From Paragemmobacter amnigenus (GTDB lineage: Bacteria > Pseudomonadota > Alphaproteobacteria > Rhodobacterales > Rhodobacteraceae), in NCBI RefSeq assembly GCF_009908265.2, contig NZ_JAAATX020000001.1, positions 1 through 64,000 on the forward strand: a stretch of DNA of 64,000 nt, read 5' to 3'. The translations under genes were made by a program, and so were the position numbers. Of the stretch, positions 11,643 to 38,214 are shown piece by piece; position 1 is the first letter of the stretch; each line of letters begins with the position of its first letter. The notes under the pieces were generated by a model, which saw only the letters and a list, made by a program, of their open reading frames with translations, searched no databases and was not told the DNA's origin.

Positions 11643-12545
11643 TCAAGTCGGGGATTTTGCGGAACGGGATTCGAGCCGCGCCACCTCGCGCCGCAGACCG
11701 TGGGCCAGAAGGTCGGCAAAACGGTTCAGCCGTTCGACGCGCCCGTCATCGGCGTGGCGGATCAACCAGAAGCTGCGGGTCAGCGCGACCTGTTGCGGGA
11801 TGACCTGCACCAGTTCGGGGGCGGCGGGAAGCGCGAAGTCGTGCACGACCCCCACCCCTGCCCCCGCGCGGAGCCAGTTCAACTGCACCGAAACGGAGTT
11901 GGAGGCGAGCGCCACGGTCCCCGCGCCGAGTTCGGCGAGGTAGTCGAGTTCCTTGTCGTGGATCATGTCGGGGATATAGCCGACGAGGCGGTGTCGGCGT
12001 AGGTCGGCAGGGGTGTAGAGGGGCGCGGCCCGTGACAGGTAGTCGGGATGGGCGGCAAGGTGCAGGTGGTAGTCGGTCAGTTTCTGAACGGTCAGGCGGC
12101 CTGCCGTCGGGCGGCTGACGGCGATGGCGAGGTCGGCCTCTCGTTTCGACAGGTTGAAGACGCGGGGGAGTGCGACGATCTGCACCTCGAGCCCCGGGTT
12201 GGCATCGCAGATTTCGGCCAGCACCTGCGGCAGCAGGTAATTGGCGCAGCCGTCGGGGGCACCGATGCGGATCTGGCCCGACAGTCCTTCGGGGCCCGTC
12301 AGCGCCTCGCGCGCACCGTCGAGGGCGGTTTCGGCGCGTTCGGCATGGGGAAGGAGGCGGGCGCCTTCCTCGGTCAGGGCATAGCCTTGCGGGGATTTGG
12401 CGAAGAGGCGGGCACCCATCGCCTCTTCCAGACGCGCGATGCGGCGGCCCACGGTGGCGGCGTCTATCTTGAGCCGCTTGCCCGCGCCCGACAGGCTTTC
12501 GCTGCGGGCGACGGCGAGGAAGATGCGGAGGTCGTCCCAATCCAT
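11643..12545 (-). CDS. LysR family transcriptional regulator
   Basis: A 300-residue LysR-type regulator. The N-terminal winged helix-turn-helix is MDWDDLRIFLAVARSESLSG followed by AGKRLKIDAATVGRRIARLE. The effector domain extends from about residue 90 (LSGQIRIGAPDG) to the C terminus. ATG 12545 has AGGAG upstream. It diverges from mmsA, and a GCAAAA-based palindrome lies in the shared region, so mmsA is the likely target. This is inference from divergence; the inducer is unknown but could be a valine or inositol breakdown intermediate. Confidence 0.9.
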   Translation of the reverse strand: MDWDDLRIFLAVARSESLSGAGKRLKIDAATVGRRIARLEEAMGARLFAKSPQGYALTEEGARLLPHAERAETALDGAREALTGPEGLSGQIRIGAPDGCANYLLPQVLAEICDANPGLEVQIVALPRVFNLSKREADLAIAVSRPTAGRLTVQKLTDYHLHLAAHPDYLSRAAPLYTPADLRRHRLVGYIPDMIHDKELDYLAELGAGTVALASNSVSVQLNWLRAGAGVGVVHDFALPAAPELVQVIPQQVALTRSFWLIRHADDGRVERLNRFADLLAHGLRREVARLESRSAKSPT

Positions 12546-12562: not shown

Positions 12563-12673
12563 GCAACGGTGGGGGATCGACCGTGGCCAAAAGCCACGGG
12601 CGGCGGCCGTCCCGCCCCCCCGGGGCGGCCGCACGTATACGTGCAACCACCCCGGCGTGACGGCCACCGCCCT
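12563..12673 (+). repeat. Multi-hairpin intergenic element, copy 1
   Basis: A ~110-base element starting GCAACGGT. Stem 1 is CCGTGGC/GCCACGG (12581-12599). Stem 2 is 12 bp including one G-U pair (12603-12632). Stem 3 is the palindrome GCACGTATACGTGC (12631-12644). The tail is CACCCCGGCGTGACGGCC...CCCT. Copies 2 (34736-34847, minus) and 3 (36948-37053) have the same order of stems with different stem sequences. It fills most of the lysR-mmsA spacer. Confidence 0.8.
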
Positions 12674-12687
12674 AGCGGCACGCCCCT

Positions 12688-12777: not shown

Positions 12778-14277
12778 ATGAAAGAGATCGGTCACTGGAT
12801 CAACGGCAAGCACGTCAAGGGCACGTCGGGCCGCTTTGCCGACGTCTTCAACCCCGCCACGGGCGAGGTCCAGGCCAAGGTGGCGCTTGCGACCAAGGCA
12901 GAGCTGGATGCCGCAACGGCGGACGCCGCCGCCGCGCAGGTGAAATGGGGTGCCACCAACCCGCAGCGCCGCGCGCGGGTGATGATGGAATTCGTCCGCC
13001 TTCTGAACCGCGACATGGACAAGCTGGCCGAAGCCCTGTCGTCCGAGCATGGCAAGACCATTCCCGACGCCAAGGGCGACATCCAGCGCGGGTTGGAGGT
13101 GATGGAATTCTGCATCGGCGCGCCGCATCTTCTGAAAGGCGAGTTCACCGACAGCGCAGGTCCGGGGATCGACATGTATTCGATGCGCCAGCCCATCGGC
13201 GTGGCGGCGGGTATCACGCCTTTCAACTTTCCGGCCATGATCCCGATGTGGAAGATGGGTCCGGCGCTGGCCTGCGGGAACGCCTTCATCCTGAAGCCTT
13301 CGGAGCGTGACCCTTCGGTCCCGCTGATGCTGGCGGAACTCATGCAGGAGGCGGGGCTGCCCGATGGCGTGCTGCAGGTGATCAACGGCGACAAGGAGGC
13401 GGTGGACGCGATCCTCGACTCGCCCATCATCGCGGGGATCGGCTTCGTCGGGTCCACCCCCATCGCGGAATACATCTATGGCCGCGGCTGTTCCAATGGC
13501 AAGCGCGTGCAGTGCTTTGGCGGTGCCAAGAACCACATGATCATCATGCCGGACGCCGACATGGATCAGGCGGCGGATGCTCTGGTCGGTGCGGGCTATG
13601 GCGCTGCGGGCGAGCGGTGCATGGCAATCTCGGTCGCGGTGCCGGTGGGCGATGCGACGGCGGATGCGCTGATCGAAAAGCTGATCCCGCGGATCGAGAA
13701 GCTGAAGGTCGGGCCCTATACCGCCGGCAACGATGTGGATTACGGCCCCGTCGTCACCGCGGCGGCGAAGGCGAACATCCTGAAGCTGGTCGAGAGTGGC
13801 GTGGCGCAAGGCGCGAAGCTGGTCGTCGACGGGCGGAACTTCAAGCTGCAGGGCTATGAGGACGGGTTCTTCGTCGGCCCGCACCTGTTCGACCATGTGA
13901 CCCGCGACATGGACATCTATCGCAAGGAAATTTTCGGGCCGGTCCTGTCCACCGTCCGCGCCAAGACCTATGAGGAAGCCTTGGCCTATGCGATGGACCA
14001 TGAATACGGCAACGGGACCGCGATCTTCACCCGCGACGGCGACACGGCGCGCGACTTTGCCGCCCGCGTCAATGTGGGGATGATCGGGATCAACGTGCCG
14101 ATCCCGGTGCCGCTGGCCTATCACACCTTCGGCGGCTGGAAGAAATCGGCCTTCGGCGATCTGAACCAGCATGGCCCCGATGCCTTCCGCTTCTACACGC
14201 GGACGAAGACCATCACCTCGCGCTGGCCGTCGGGAATCAAGGAAGGCGCGAGCCTGAACTTCAAGCCGATGGATTGA
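12778..14277 (+). CDS. mmsA: Methylmalonate-semialdehyde dehydrogenase (CoA-acylating)
   Basis: A 499-residue aldehyde dehydrogenase of the MmsA class. It oxidises methylmalonate semialdehyde (valine, inositol) or malonate semialdehyde to propionyl- or acetyl-CoA with release of CO2. The start MKEIGHWINGKHVKGTSGRF, the ITPFNFPAMIPMWKMGPALA cofactor block and the catalytic Cys in GAAGERCMAISVAVPVG (about residue 281) are typical. GGGAGG precedes the ATG. A LysR gene diverges from it. An intrinsic terminator follows. Confidence 0.95.
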   Translation: MKEIGHWINGKHVKGTSGRFADVFNPATGEVQAKVALATKAELDAATADAAAAQVKWGATNPQRRARVMMEFVRLLNRDMDKLAEALSSEHGKTIPDAKGDIQRGLEVMEFCIGAPHLLKGEFTDSAGPGIDMYSMRQPIGVAAGITPFNFPAMIPMWKMGPALACGNAFILKPSERDPSVPLMLAELMQEAGLPDGVLQVINGDKEAVDAILDSPIIAGIGFVGSTPIAEYIYGRGCSNGKRVQCFGGAKNHMIIMPDADMDQAADALVGAGYGAAGERCMAISVAVPVGDATADALIEKLIPRIEKLKVGPYTAGNDVDYGPVVTAAAKANILKLVESGVAQGAKLVVDGRNFKLQGYEDGFFVGPHLFDHVTRDMDIYRKEIFGPVLSTVRAKTYEEALAYAMDHEYGNGTAIFTRDGDTARDFAARVNVGMIGINVPIPVPLAYHTFGGWKKSAFGDLNQHGPDAFRFYTRTKTITSRWPSGIKEGASLNFKPMD

Positions 14278-34666: not shown

Positions 34667-34735
34667 AATCCGGGGTGATCTTTCCAGAGCGGCCGACGGG
34701 GGCGTGAGGTTCCTCTGACGAAAGGGCGCGGCGGC

Positions 34736-34847
34736 AGGGTGGCGGCCGTCACGCCGGGGTGGCTGCACGGACCCCGTGCGGCCGCCCCGGGGGGGGCGGG
34801 ACGGCCGCCACCCGGGGCTTTGGCCCCGGGTGAGACCTGACCGTTGC
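34736..34847 (-). repeat. Multi-hairpin intergenic element, copy 2
   Basis: Read on the minus strand: GCAACGGT, stem 1 ACCCGGGGC/GCCCCGGGT (34810-34831), stem 2 of 12 bp with one G-U (34778-34808), stem 3 GCACGG/CCGTGC (34765-34779), then the CACCCCGGCGTGACGGCC tail. It begins 19 bases after the stop of the M20 amidohydrolase gene, in the sense orientation. Confidence 0.8.
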
Positions 34848-34866: not shown

Positions 34867-36042
34867 TCAGGCCACCGGCTGGGCGCGTTCCACGAGCCTT
34901 GCGAAGAAGCTGGCGCCGACGGGGGCGGCCTCGTCGTTGAAGTCATAGGCGGGGTGGTGCAGGCCCGCACCGGGGCCGGTGCCGAGGAAGAGATAGGCGC
35001 CGGGACGCGATTCCAGCATGTAGGAGAAATCCTCGGACCCCATCTCGCGGTTGGCCTTGTCGTTCACCGCGCCCTCGCCCGACACCTCGCGCGCGACATC
35101 GGCGGCGAAGGCGGCGGCGTCGGCATGGTTCACGGTGGCGGGATAGCCCCAGTCATAGTCGATGCGGGCGGTGACGTTGTAGGCCAGCGCATGGCCTTCG
35201 ACGATCTCGTGGAAGCGGCGCTTCAGGAGCGCGCGGACCTCGGGGTTGAAGCAGCGGATGGTGGCGCAGAACATCGCCTCTTCGGGGATGATGTTGGACG
35301 CCGTGCCGGTGTGGATCTGGGTGACCGAAATCACCGCCTCGTCCAGCGCATAGACGTTGCGGGGGATGATGGTCTGCACCGCCTGCACCATGCCCACCAC
35401 GGCGACGACGGGGTCGATGCAGTCATGCGGCGTGGCACCGTGGCCGCCCTTGCCGGTGATATAGACAAAGGCCGTGTCGACCGAGGCCATGAGCGCGCCG
35501 GGATTGGTGTGGAAATGGCCGAATTCGACGTTGGGGGCGTTGTGGATGCCATAGACCGTGTCGATGCCGAAACGGTCCATCACGCCTTCCTTCACCATGA
35601 CCTCGCCGCCGCCGCCATCTTCCTCGGCCGGCTGGAACAGCAGCGCGACGCGGCCCCGGAAGCGGCGCGTCTCGGTCAGGTATTTGGCGGCGCCGAGCAG
35701 CATGGTGACATGGCCGTCATGGCCGCAGGCATGCATCTTGCCGGGGATGGTGGAGGCGTGGTCGGCCCCCGTGATCTCGTGGATCGGGAGCGCGTCCATG
35801 TCGGCGCGCAGGCCGATGACGGGGGCGTCGGGGTCGTCGGCCCCCTGCCCCTTGATGATGGCGACGATGCCGGAGGTGGCGATGCCGGTGTGGATTTCGT
35901 CCACGCCAAAGTCGCGCAGGCGGTCGGTGATGAAGGCCGCTGTCTGGTGGCAGTCGAAGCCAAGCTCGGGATGGGCGTGCAGATGGCGACGCCAGACCTT
36001 CATTTCCTCGGCATAAGCGGCGATACGGTTGAGGACGGGCAT
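34867..36042 (-). CDS. M20 family metallo-amidohydrolase (hippurate/N-acyl amino acid hydrolase type)
   Basis: A 391-residue zinc amidohydrolase. It has RHLHAHPELGFD at the N terminus, GLRADMDALP, the metal/catalytic MHACGHDGHVTMLLG and LLFQPAEEDGGGG, and a dimerisation domain with GKGGHGATPHDCIDPV. This is the HipO/AmhX-like branch hydrolysing N-acyl amino acids or hippurate. With the neighbouring aminotransferase and agmatinase it could act on acylated amines. Substrate not determinable. Confidence 0.9.
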   Translation of the reverse strand: MPVLNRIAAYAEEMKVWRRHLHAHPELGFDCHQTAAFITDRLRDFGVDEIHTGIATSGIVAIIKGQGADDPDAPVIGLRADMDALPIHEITGADHASTIPGKMHACGHDGHVTMLLGAAKYLTETRRFRGRVALLFQPAEEDGGGGEVMVKEGVMDRFGIDTVYGIHNAPNVEFGHFHTNPGALMASVDTAFVYITGKGGHGATPHDCIDPVVAVVGMVQAVQTIIPRNVYALDEAVISVTQIHTGTASNIIPEEAMFCATIRCFNPEVRALLKRRFHEIVEGHALAYNVTARIDYDWGYPATVNHADAAAFAADVAREVSGEGAVNDKANREMGSEDFSYMLESRPGAYLFLGTGPGAGLHHPAYDFNDEAAPVGASFFARLVERAQPVA

Positions 36043-36099: not shown

Positions 36100-36939
36100 A
36101 TGGCCGCACCTGAAAGTGACGCGACGGCAGGCGGGAAGCTGATCAATGATCCCGAAGGGGGGATGGACAGGCTGCGCGCGATCATGCGGGCGCTGCGCGA
36201 TCCGGTGACGGGGTGCCCGTGGGATATCGAGCAGGATTTCGCCTCGATCGCGCCCTATACGATCGAGGAGGCGCATGAGGTGGCCGACGCCATCACGCGG
36301 CGGGCCTGGGGGGAATTGCCGGGCGAGTTGGGCGATCTGCTGTTGCAGGTGGTCTATCACGCGCAGATGGCCGAGGAGGCGGGGCTGTTCGCCTTTGACG
36401 ATGTCGTGCGGGCGATTGCCGACAAGATGGTGGCGCGGCATCCGCATGTCTTTGGCGACGAAAGCCGCGAGAAGAGCGCGGCGCAGCAGACCGCCGACTG
36501 GGAGCGGATCAAGGCCGCCGAACGGGGGCCAGCGCGGGTGCTGGAGGGCGTCGCGCTGGGCCTGCCTGCGCTGACGCGGGCGGTGAAGCTGCAAAAGCGC
36601 GCGGCGCGGGTGGGGTTCGACTGGCCCTCGACCGACGAGGTGGTGGCGAAGATCGCGGAAGAGGCGGCGGAGCTGGTGGAGGCGCGGGAGAGGCTGACGG
36701 CGGCGGAGGTGGAGGAGGAATTCGGCGACCTGCTGTTCGTCATGGCCAATCTGGCGCGGCATCTGGGGGTGGACCCCGAGGCGGCCCTGCGCGGGGCGAA
36801 TGCGAAGTTCACGCGGCGCTTCGGGCGGATCGAGGATTGGCTGGAGGAGGCGGGCAAGCGGCCTGCGGACAGCGATCTGGCCGAGATGGATGCGCTGTGG
36901 AACCGCGCGAAGGCGGAGGAGAAGGCGGGGAAAACCTGA
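36100..36939 (+). CDS. mazG: Nucleoside triphosphate pyrophosphohydrolase MazG
   Basis: A 279-residue all-alpha NTP pyrophosphohydrolase with two MazG domains. The first carries CPWDIEQDFASIAPYTIEEA and ELPGELGDLLLQVVYHAQ; the second carries KIAEEAAELVEARERL and VEEEFGDLLFVMANLARHLG. Both show the ExxE...ExxD metal pattern. The enzyme removes aberrant nucleotides and lowers NTP pools. It is followed within 9 bases by multi-hairpin element copy 3. Confidence 0.95.
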   Translation: MAAPESDATAGGKLINDPEGGMDRLRAIMRALRDPVTGCPWDIEQDFASIAPYTIEEAHEVADAITRRAWGELPGELGDLLLQVVYHAQMAEEAGLFAFDDVVRAIADKMVARHPHVFGDESREKSAAQQTADWERIKAAERGPARVLEGVALGLPALTRAVKLQKRAARVGFDWPSTDEVVAKIAEEAAELVEARERLTAAEVEEEFGDLLFVMANLARHLGVDPEAALRGANAKFTRRFGRIEDWLEEAGKRPADSDLAEMDALWNRAKAEEKAGKT

Positions 36940-36947
36940 AGCTTTTC

Positions 36948-37053
36948 GCAACGGTGGGGTTTGGCCCGTGGCCCAAAGCCACGGGCCGCGCACGACCCGC
37001 CCCCACGGGTCGTGCGCCAGAGGCGCCCGCCCCGGCGGGTCATGCGCGCCCCT
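36948..37053 (+). repeat. Multi-hairpin intergenic element, copy 3
   Basis: GCAACGGT, then stem 1 GGCCCGTGGC/GCCACGGGCC (36963-36987), stem 2 a perfect 12-bp GCGCACGACCCG/CGGGTCGTGCGC (36988-37017), stem 3 GCGCC/GGCGC (37014-37026), stem 4 CCCGC/GCGGG (37026-37039), ending near CCCCTA. This copy has the most stable stems; most stem bases differ from copies 1 and 2 while pairing is kept. Confidence 0.82.
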
Positions 37054-37135
37054 ACCGGCGGACGGACGAAACGCGCCACTGGCGCCTTTCCTCCGTCCTC
37101 GACCTGTCACAGGGATGCTCACTTTTTTGTTTAGC

Positions 37136-37212: not shown

Positions 37213-38214
37213 ATGCGCCTTCCGTTTCTGGCCCTTGCCCTTGCCACCACCGCCCTTCCCGCGCTGGCCGAGGAGATCAACGTCTATTCCCACCGCCAGC
37301 CCGAGCTGATCCAGCCGCTGGTCGATGCCTTCACCGCCGAGACGGGGATCACCGTCAATGTGGCCTTCGTGGACAAGGGGATGGCCGAGCGTCTGGTGGC
37401 CGAGGGCGACCGGTCGCCCGCCGATCTGGTGCTGACCGTCGACATCGCGCGGCTGACGCAGATCGTGGATGCGGGGGTGACGCAGGCCGTGCAGTCGGAC
37501 GTGCTGGAGGCCAATATCCCCGAGACGCTGCGCGATGCGGGGGACCAGTGGTTCGGCCTGACCAGCCGCGCGCGGATCGTCTATGCCAGCAAGGACCGCG
37601 TGGCCCCGGGCGAGGTGACGACCTATGAGGATCTGGCGGACCCGAAATGGCAGGGGCGCATCTGCATCCGGTCGGGGACCAATGACTATAACGTGGCGCT
37701 GGTGGCCGCGATGATCGCCCATCATGGCGAGGATTACGCGCGGACCTGGCTGGAAGGCGTGAAGGCCAATCTGGCGCGCAAGCCCGATGGCGGCGACCGT
37801 GACCAGGTCAAGGCCATTGCGGCGGGCGAATGCGACATCGCGGTCGGCAATACCTATTACATCGGCCAGATGCTGAAAGACCCCGAGCAGCAGGCGGCGG
37901 CCGAGGCGGTGCGGATCGACTTTCCCGTCTTCGAAGGCGACGGCACCCATCTGAACGTGTCGGGCATCGCCATGACCAAGGCCGCGCCGAACCGCGAGGC
38001 GGCGCTGAAATTCATGGAATGGCTGTCGGGCGACGAGGCGCAGCGCATCTATGCCGAGACGAACAGCGAATTCCCCGTGAAGCCCGGCGTGGCCAAGTCG
38101 GAACTCGTGGCAAGCTGGGGCGAATTCACGCCGGACAGCATGGCGCTGACCGAGGTGGCGAAGCTGCGCCCCGACGCGCTGAAGCTGGTGGAGCAGGTGG
38201 ATTTCGACGGCTGA
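37213..38214 (+). CDS. Fe(III) ABC transporter substrate-binding protein
   Basis: A 333-residue periplasmic binding protein of the FbpA/FutA type. It has a signal peptide (RLPFLALALATTALPALA), the mature start EEINVYSHRQPELIQPLVD, and Tyr residues in SNTYYIG-like position (VGNTYYIGQML) that ligate ferric iron in the family. No permease or ATPase gene adjoins it: the next gene is a nucleoside hydrolase after a terminator. The rest of the transporter must be elsewhere. Confidence 0.92.
   Translation: MRLPFLALALATTALPALAEEINVYSHRQPELIQPLVDAFTAETGITVNVAFVDKGMAERLVAEGDRSPADLVLTVDIARLTQIVDAGVTQAVQSDVLEANIPETLRDAGDQWFGLTSRARIVYASKDRVAPGEVTTYEDLADPKWQGRICIRSGTNDYNVALVAAMIAHHGEDYARTWLEGVKANLARKPDGGDRDQVKAIAAGECDIAVGNTYYIGQMLKDPEQQAAAEAVRIDFPVFEGDGTHLNVSGIAMTKAAPNREAALKFMEWLSGDEAQRIYAETNSEFPVKPGVAKSELVASWGEFTPDSMALTEVAKLRPDALKLVEQVDFDG

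Follow-up and report, generated by a model that had tools for sequence, protein, structure and literature searches.

The 64,000-nucleotide stretch of Paragemmobacter amnigenus DNA analysed here (hereafter the window) contains three copies of a hairpin-rich element that is real, covarying, present in many copies and distributed across the Rhodobacteraceae. The element probably represents a non-autonomous, REPIN/MITE-like family of palindromic repeats served in trans by a putative mobiliser. It is not assigned to the REPIN, CIR or any Rfam family, and a REPIN/MITE-like repeat rather than a classical RNA gene is the best reading of the element.

Architecture and covariation of the element

Reading of the window confirmed the positions, strands and stems of the three look-alike elements described in the initial annotation. 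Copy 1 (family A, 12563..12681, + strand) occupies the spacer between divergent genes for a LysR-type regulator (11646..12545, −) and an aldehyde dehydrogenase (12778..14277, +), the latter of which we take to be mmsA-like. Copy 2 (family A, 34729..34847, −) starts 19 nt past the stop codon of an upstream M20 peptidase gene (34867..36042, −), and copy 3 (family B, 36948..37060, +) starts 8 nt past the stop codon of mazG (36100..36939, +), with an extracellular solute-binding protein gene (37213..38214, +) located downstream. The start motif GCAACGGTNNGG, described as common to all three, has exactly three occurrences in the window, compared with a mean of 0.23 in shuffled sequence, and none of 100 shuffles reached this count. 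At three loci of the window's genome (L001, L003 and L015), the copies have an aldehyde dehydrogenase-like gene adjacent to them or close by, probably by coincidence.

The element measures approximately 105–155 bp, lacks coding capacity and carries terminal inverted repeats of about 10–14 bp that are visible in the copies. In copy 1, the 5′ terminal box GCAACGGTGGGG (12563..12574, +) constitutes such a repeat, for which reading of the copies gave the consensus GCGCAACGGTnGGG. The box is followed by the covarying hairpin 1 (CCGTGGC/GCCACGG; 12581..12599, +) and by a core of four arms, namely a (12602..12614, +; partner b or d), b (12621..12634, +; partner a or c), c (12641..12653, +; partner b, with a GTATAC centre between the two) and d (12654..12672, +; partner a). 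As a:b, a:d and b:c all covary, with hairpin 1 standing separately, the core can fold either as tandem hairpins or as one nested hairpin. The C-rich tail reported previously consists of arms c and d, which are part of a long imperfect palindrome; the partner of arm d is the 5′ arm of the former stem 2, and the former stem 3 corresponds to the tip of the b:c stem. The three copies share their stems, and copy 3 represents a longer subtype that has a single additional 3′ hairpin (GAAACGCGCCACTGGCGCCTTTC core; 37060..37098, +), the stem letters of which differ among copies while pairing is kept. In two genomes, and at loci chosen for their elements, this additional hairpin was located within 120 nt of an element in 15 of 15 cases. 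An extra loop with GAGTCTGAACGG or a near form was observed between arms a and b at six loci (L258, L256, L105, L259, L261 and L233), and orthologous copies differ in the presence of a loop of this type.

For covariation analysis, 134 near-full copies were thinned to 51 sharing less than 86% identity, 50 of which came from the genus and the remaining one from a different genus. Without any structure being supplied, the column pairs with the highest corrected mutual information were mostly stem pairs, and certain columns covaried with a second partner as well: 50 paired with both 87 (98%) and 123 (88%), 87 also with 105 (82%), and 45 with both 16 and 128. In counts that ignore the relatedness of the copies, the nested fold (hairpin 1, a:d and b:c) left 91.8% of cells paired, compared with 76.0% in shuffled alignments and 32–48% for slid structures, and reached a covariation score of 0.343 (0.097 when shuffled) that none of 500 shuffles equalled. 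Its 16 pairs changed on both sides and its further pair types were unexceptional, with values as high in 38 and 229 of 500 shuffles, respectively. Counted in the same way, the alternative fold (hairpin 1 and a:b) gave 94.7% paired cells against 77.5%, and a score of 0.398 against 0.106. Stem 2 of the initial annotation (a:b) represents one of two competing pairings, with both-side changes in seven of 11 pairs across the 51 diverse copies; among the 17 full copies of family A in the window's genome, none of its pairs had changed on both sides. The view that the element is not drifted spacer and that its pairing is kept while letters change holds over the 51 copies, for which pairing and covariation exceeded the shuffled and slid controls on the main measures. 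The same behaviour was seen in other genera: at locus L300, arms a, b and d changed together (CCT/AGG/GAGG), and in Leisingera caerulea M561 every stem at the rfbB site differs from that of Phaeobacter with pairing kept.

Distribution and genomic placement

The search for further copies was productive in the same genome, in the genus and in the family. With copy 1 as query, BLAST returned 53 matches in the window's genome (4.14 Mb), whereas a covariance model built from 17 full copies gave 57 matches at E ≤ 0.01 at 44 distinct places, 13 matches being the other strand of a place already counted because the element is nearly palindromic. At the same threshold, ten of 19 genomes of the genus contained matches (57, 54, 47, 44, 42, 12, 12, 8, 7 and 1, both strands counted) and nine contained none. 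A pattern scan of named genomes revealed 40 stretches in six genomes, including Gemmobacter straminiformis CAM-8 and Rhodobacter sp. CACIA14H1. At the family level, the first model matched four of 295 genomes at 1e-6, and a broader model derived from the 51 diverse copies had matches at 1e-5 in 57 of the 394 Rhodobacteraceae genomes searched, with only nine candidates scored per genome. Applied to a class-wide sample, the broader model matched three of 385 genomes, comprising the window's own genome, a further family member and another genome at the threshold. A 30-base core pattern, which misses the window's own subtype, was present with at most two mismatches in 73 of the 394 family genomes (up to 18 per genome), and the reversed-pattern control gave zero among the rows listed.

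The core is kept across many genera and is near-identical in distant ones. Among named plasmids, 152 records matched the family-wide pattern, including 35 from Phaeobacter and 26 from Leisingera; Pseudosulfitobacter plasmids accounted for 87 records, and those listed were short partial matches. The genus version of the element had no match in the plasmid records, and the phage records contained no match with the element. The element is a family of repeats in many Rhodobacteraceae, probably old in this group and expanded in some of its genomes.

Placement was determined with our own gene calls for 96 copies from five genomes, leaving out 22 copies at contig or locus edges, and yielded 41 copies in convergent, 47 in tandem (29 sense, 18 antisense) and eight in divergent spacers; for comparison, the window's own gene neighbours are 41 tandem, six convergent and six divergent. 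Tandem and convergent copies lie at a median of 31 nt past the nearest upstream stop codon, and one copy separates a TRAP solute-binding gene from its permease gene. A position near gene ends, past stop codons, is also described for REPs (PMC3733652).

Orientation and occupancy of orthologous sites

Comparison of the LysR/aldehyde dehydrogenase spacer in 19 genomes revealed eight filled sites, split three to five between the two orientations, while nine genomes were element-free with a short spacer, one gave no match and one had the site at a contig edge. A tree of the LysR and dehydrogenase sequences, in which some nodes were weakly supported, placed the window's genome and its nearest relative among element-free species. 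In one genome (G023, L126), a long perfect palindrome on GACCGTTAGGCAAACGTCC, a second kind of hairpin, adjoins the element in this spacer. The copy 1 site was element-free in four relatives and the copy 3 site in three, and two relatives carry other sequence instead of the element at the copy 2 site. The replacing sequence in these two (G008 and G005; L157 and L169) has a GGATATTTGCAGACAGAAAG or GGGGGTATTTGG-like motif and is perhaps another intergenic repeat.

Out of 164 unique copies, 27 groups of orthologous filled sites were formed; the groups 65/144 and 110/132 were dropped on reading of the sequences, as the flanks differ in the former and neighbouring paralogues are involved in the latter. 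Three genomes of the genus (G023, G024 and G009) have 17 sites in common, of which one was dropped, and the element is oppositely oriented at eight of the remaining 16 (eight of 17 when the separately seen LysR site is added); one of the eight was checked on a single flank, the other being unknown sequence, and two of the same-orientation sites were not read by eye. Between G000 and G012, one of nine sites is opposite, and the partner copy there is truncated. At two sites in the window's genus the opposite copies are 96–97% identical, as would suit a true inversion. At the aminotransferase site of Leisingera aquaemixtae, the element of strain M602 is inverted relative to strains S166 and M583 between collinear flanks of 98% and 92–93% identity, whereas the element itself is 82% identical over 90 nt. 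Simple inversion as the sole cause of opposite orientations is therefore insufficient, and because the element is less identical than its flanks, replacement by another copy appears as likely at this site. Judged from these comparisons, true inversion and replacement would both be alive as explanations. The identity difference between orthologous copies and random pairs was suggestive only.

Empty and decayed sites were also found in other genera. The TRAP spacer is without the element in four Leisingera lineages (L. thetidis, L. caerulea S141 and strains NJS204 and M527) and holds a copy without the inner hairpin in L. aquaemixtae M602. At the rfbB site, where the element of Phaeobacter and Leisingera looks vertically inherited and has one orientation, P. 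inhibens DSM 17395 has a remnant only. Behind the doc toxin gene (L396 and L399), a different hairpin-rich sequence replaces the element in L. aquaemixtae M602 and strain NJS204. No target-site duplication was recognised at the compared sites, the flanks of which are too diverged for a clear reading, and the searches brought up neither a transposition event nor a mobilising enzyme.

Interpretation and relation to known repeat families

The initial annotation had left the choice between a structured RNA and a MITE/REP-like family. Its mobile-repeat half is favoured by the element-free orthologous sites, the patchy copy number, the terminal inverted repeats and the opposite orientations at one site, while the RNA half is less favoured and a strict RAYT-associated REP found no support in what was testable. 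In a mobile repeat of this kind, the hairpins would be recognised in single-stranded DNA by an enzyme acting in trans, which would place copies in intergenic DNA near gene ends. The copies would then decay, lose inner hairpins, be replaced by other copies or be turned round, and the arms may copy each other, through template switching or gene conversion, so that pairing would persist while the letters change. Hairpins in the transcript may incidentally stabilise or insulate mRNA ends.

A structured RNA family or an mRNA 3′-end or intercistronic element (a stabiliser, insulator or RNase block), whose fold is selected and whose copies are kept where they help their neighbours, would account for the strong covariation, for the copies close past stop codons including the one between the TRAP genes, and for a core kept over many genera and near-identical in distant ones. 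The rfbB-site copy, with its vertical appearance and single orientation, speaks against a mobile repeat. A further point in favour of an RNA comes from the strands. On the strand of the initial annotation, the b:c stem contains 82 A·C versus five G·T mismatches, and the opposite lean was found for hairpin 1 (0 to 9) and a:b (4 to 20); for 49 of 51 copies, folding energy was lower on the reverse strand (mean −79.3 versus −70.9 kcal/mol). This better folding, however, could fit RNA or single-stranded DNA with G·T pairs on that strand alike. Moreover, both orientations are used in tandem spacers and even at one site, many relatives are element-free at the same sites, and template switching between arms can keep pairing without selection on RNA (PMC8604942). 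In the window, no Rfam 15 family scored at or above its gathering threshold, in agreement with the earlier statement that no named family was recognised; among 12 loci searched, two tRNAs located elsewhere than the element were the only hits, and permissive searches that included copy 1 gave sub-threshold matches only. We consider selection on an RNA rather unlikely as the main explanation.

Equally doubtful is a MITE that depends on an ordinary insertion sequence of the DDE type, whose transposase would act via the terminal repeats GCGCAACGGTnGGG. As in MITEs, terminal inverted repeats are combined with a lack of coding capacity, and the length of these repeats, the two orientations and the intergenic insertion would all be expected. 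However, the one facing GCAACGGT pair examined in detail in the search for an insertion sequence with the same ends (G000:C2) encloses ordinary genes and no transposase, and the lack of a recognised target-site duplication, in diverged flanks, may also count against this origin. In all-against-all comparisons of neighbouring genes, no transposase-like neighbour recurred, although 172 neighbour clusters were taken without individual annotation; aldehyde dehydrogenases and orthologues made up the largest clusters.

REPINs, in turn, are REP doublets that form hairpins and are moved by RAYTs (PMC3116915). The core resembles them in its pair of mutually complementary hairpins, arranged in inverted order, which can fold into either a single long hairpin or a two-leaved clover, and also in its compensatory changes, its location between genes and its many copies per genome (same source). 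A strict REP/REPIN family whose RAYT was lost or missed would explain this topology and also the CTAC motif that complements a GTAG head and stands within 20 nt of the 3′ end in ten of 51 copies, but we judge it to be quite improbable. In contrast to REPINs, the element carries terminal repeats and, next to the doublet, hairpin 1 as a third hairpin, a consistent GTAG head is absent, and no RAYT was found beside the fetched copies. The Pfam model Y1_Tnp, which is weak here, had no match in the window's genome and none over its cut-off in the 19 genomes of the genus. One sub-cut-off match (G008, L211:1378-1956) is a true RAYT according to NCBIfam NF047646 (150 bits, cut-off 80), and thus the Pfam search is too insensitive to exclude RAYTs. 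This RAYT, the only one found in the genus, adjoins its own GTAGGATGGGC hairpins in a genome that is element-free, and a tblastn search with it against the loci fetched by then returned itself and one match at E = 0.23 only. As mobiliser of the element, a RAYT accordingly found no support in the flanks or by Pfam. A similar GTAGGATGGGC hairpin was seen beside an element copy at L004 in the window's genome.

Among other repeats, the RIME of rhizobia is an alphaproteobacterial element with two palindromes in a length of about 110 bp. CIR elements, which occur in Caulobacter, Brucella and further alphaproteobacteria, resemble the present element in their length of about 110 bp, intergenic location, two long inverted repeats and conserved fold (PMC2229807), but their defining GANTC methylation motif occurs in one of 51 copies. 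ERIC/IRU and other MITE-like repeats are likewise intergenic imperfect palindromes of about 100–170 bp with terminal repeats and a possible RNA fold, whereas a four-arm core with double pairing is absent from their accounts in the part of PMC2229807 drawn upon here. Finally, although hairpins are plentiful in GC-rich genomes, chance similarity of GC-rich hairpins has a negligible probability, being contradicted by the shuffles, the slid structures, the class-wide sample and the reversed pattern among the rows listed.

In the open-licence literature we found no description of this repeat family, and its novelty is provisional. The element extends the known repeats of a group rich in model organisms, such as Phaeobacter, Ruegeria and Leisingera, by a family that is widely distributed and apparently uncatalogued. 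More speculatively, and with considerable doubt on our part, these repeats might be mobile palindromes that are repeatedly turned or swapped at fixed addresses throughout the Rhodobacteraceae by a putative new mobilising or recombining enzyme, with four-arm pairing kept by copying at the DNA level and not by selection on RNA. Covariation between arms would usually be taken as proof of an RNA; since the same loci also show orientation reversals and replacements, the family offers a good test case for distinguishing RNA selection from DNA template switching, and the opposite orientations in named Leisingera strains make mobility or inversion directly testable.
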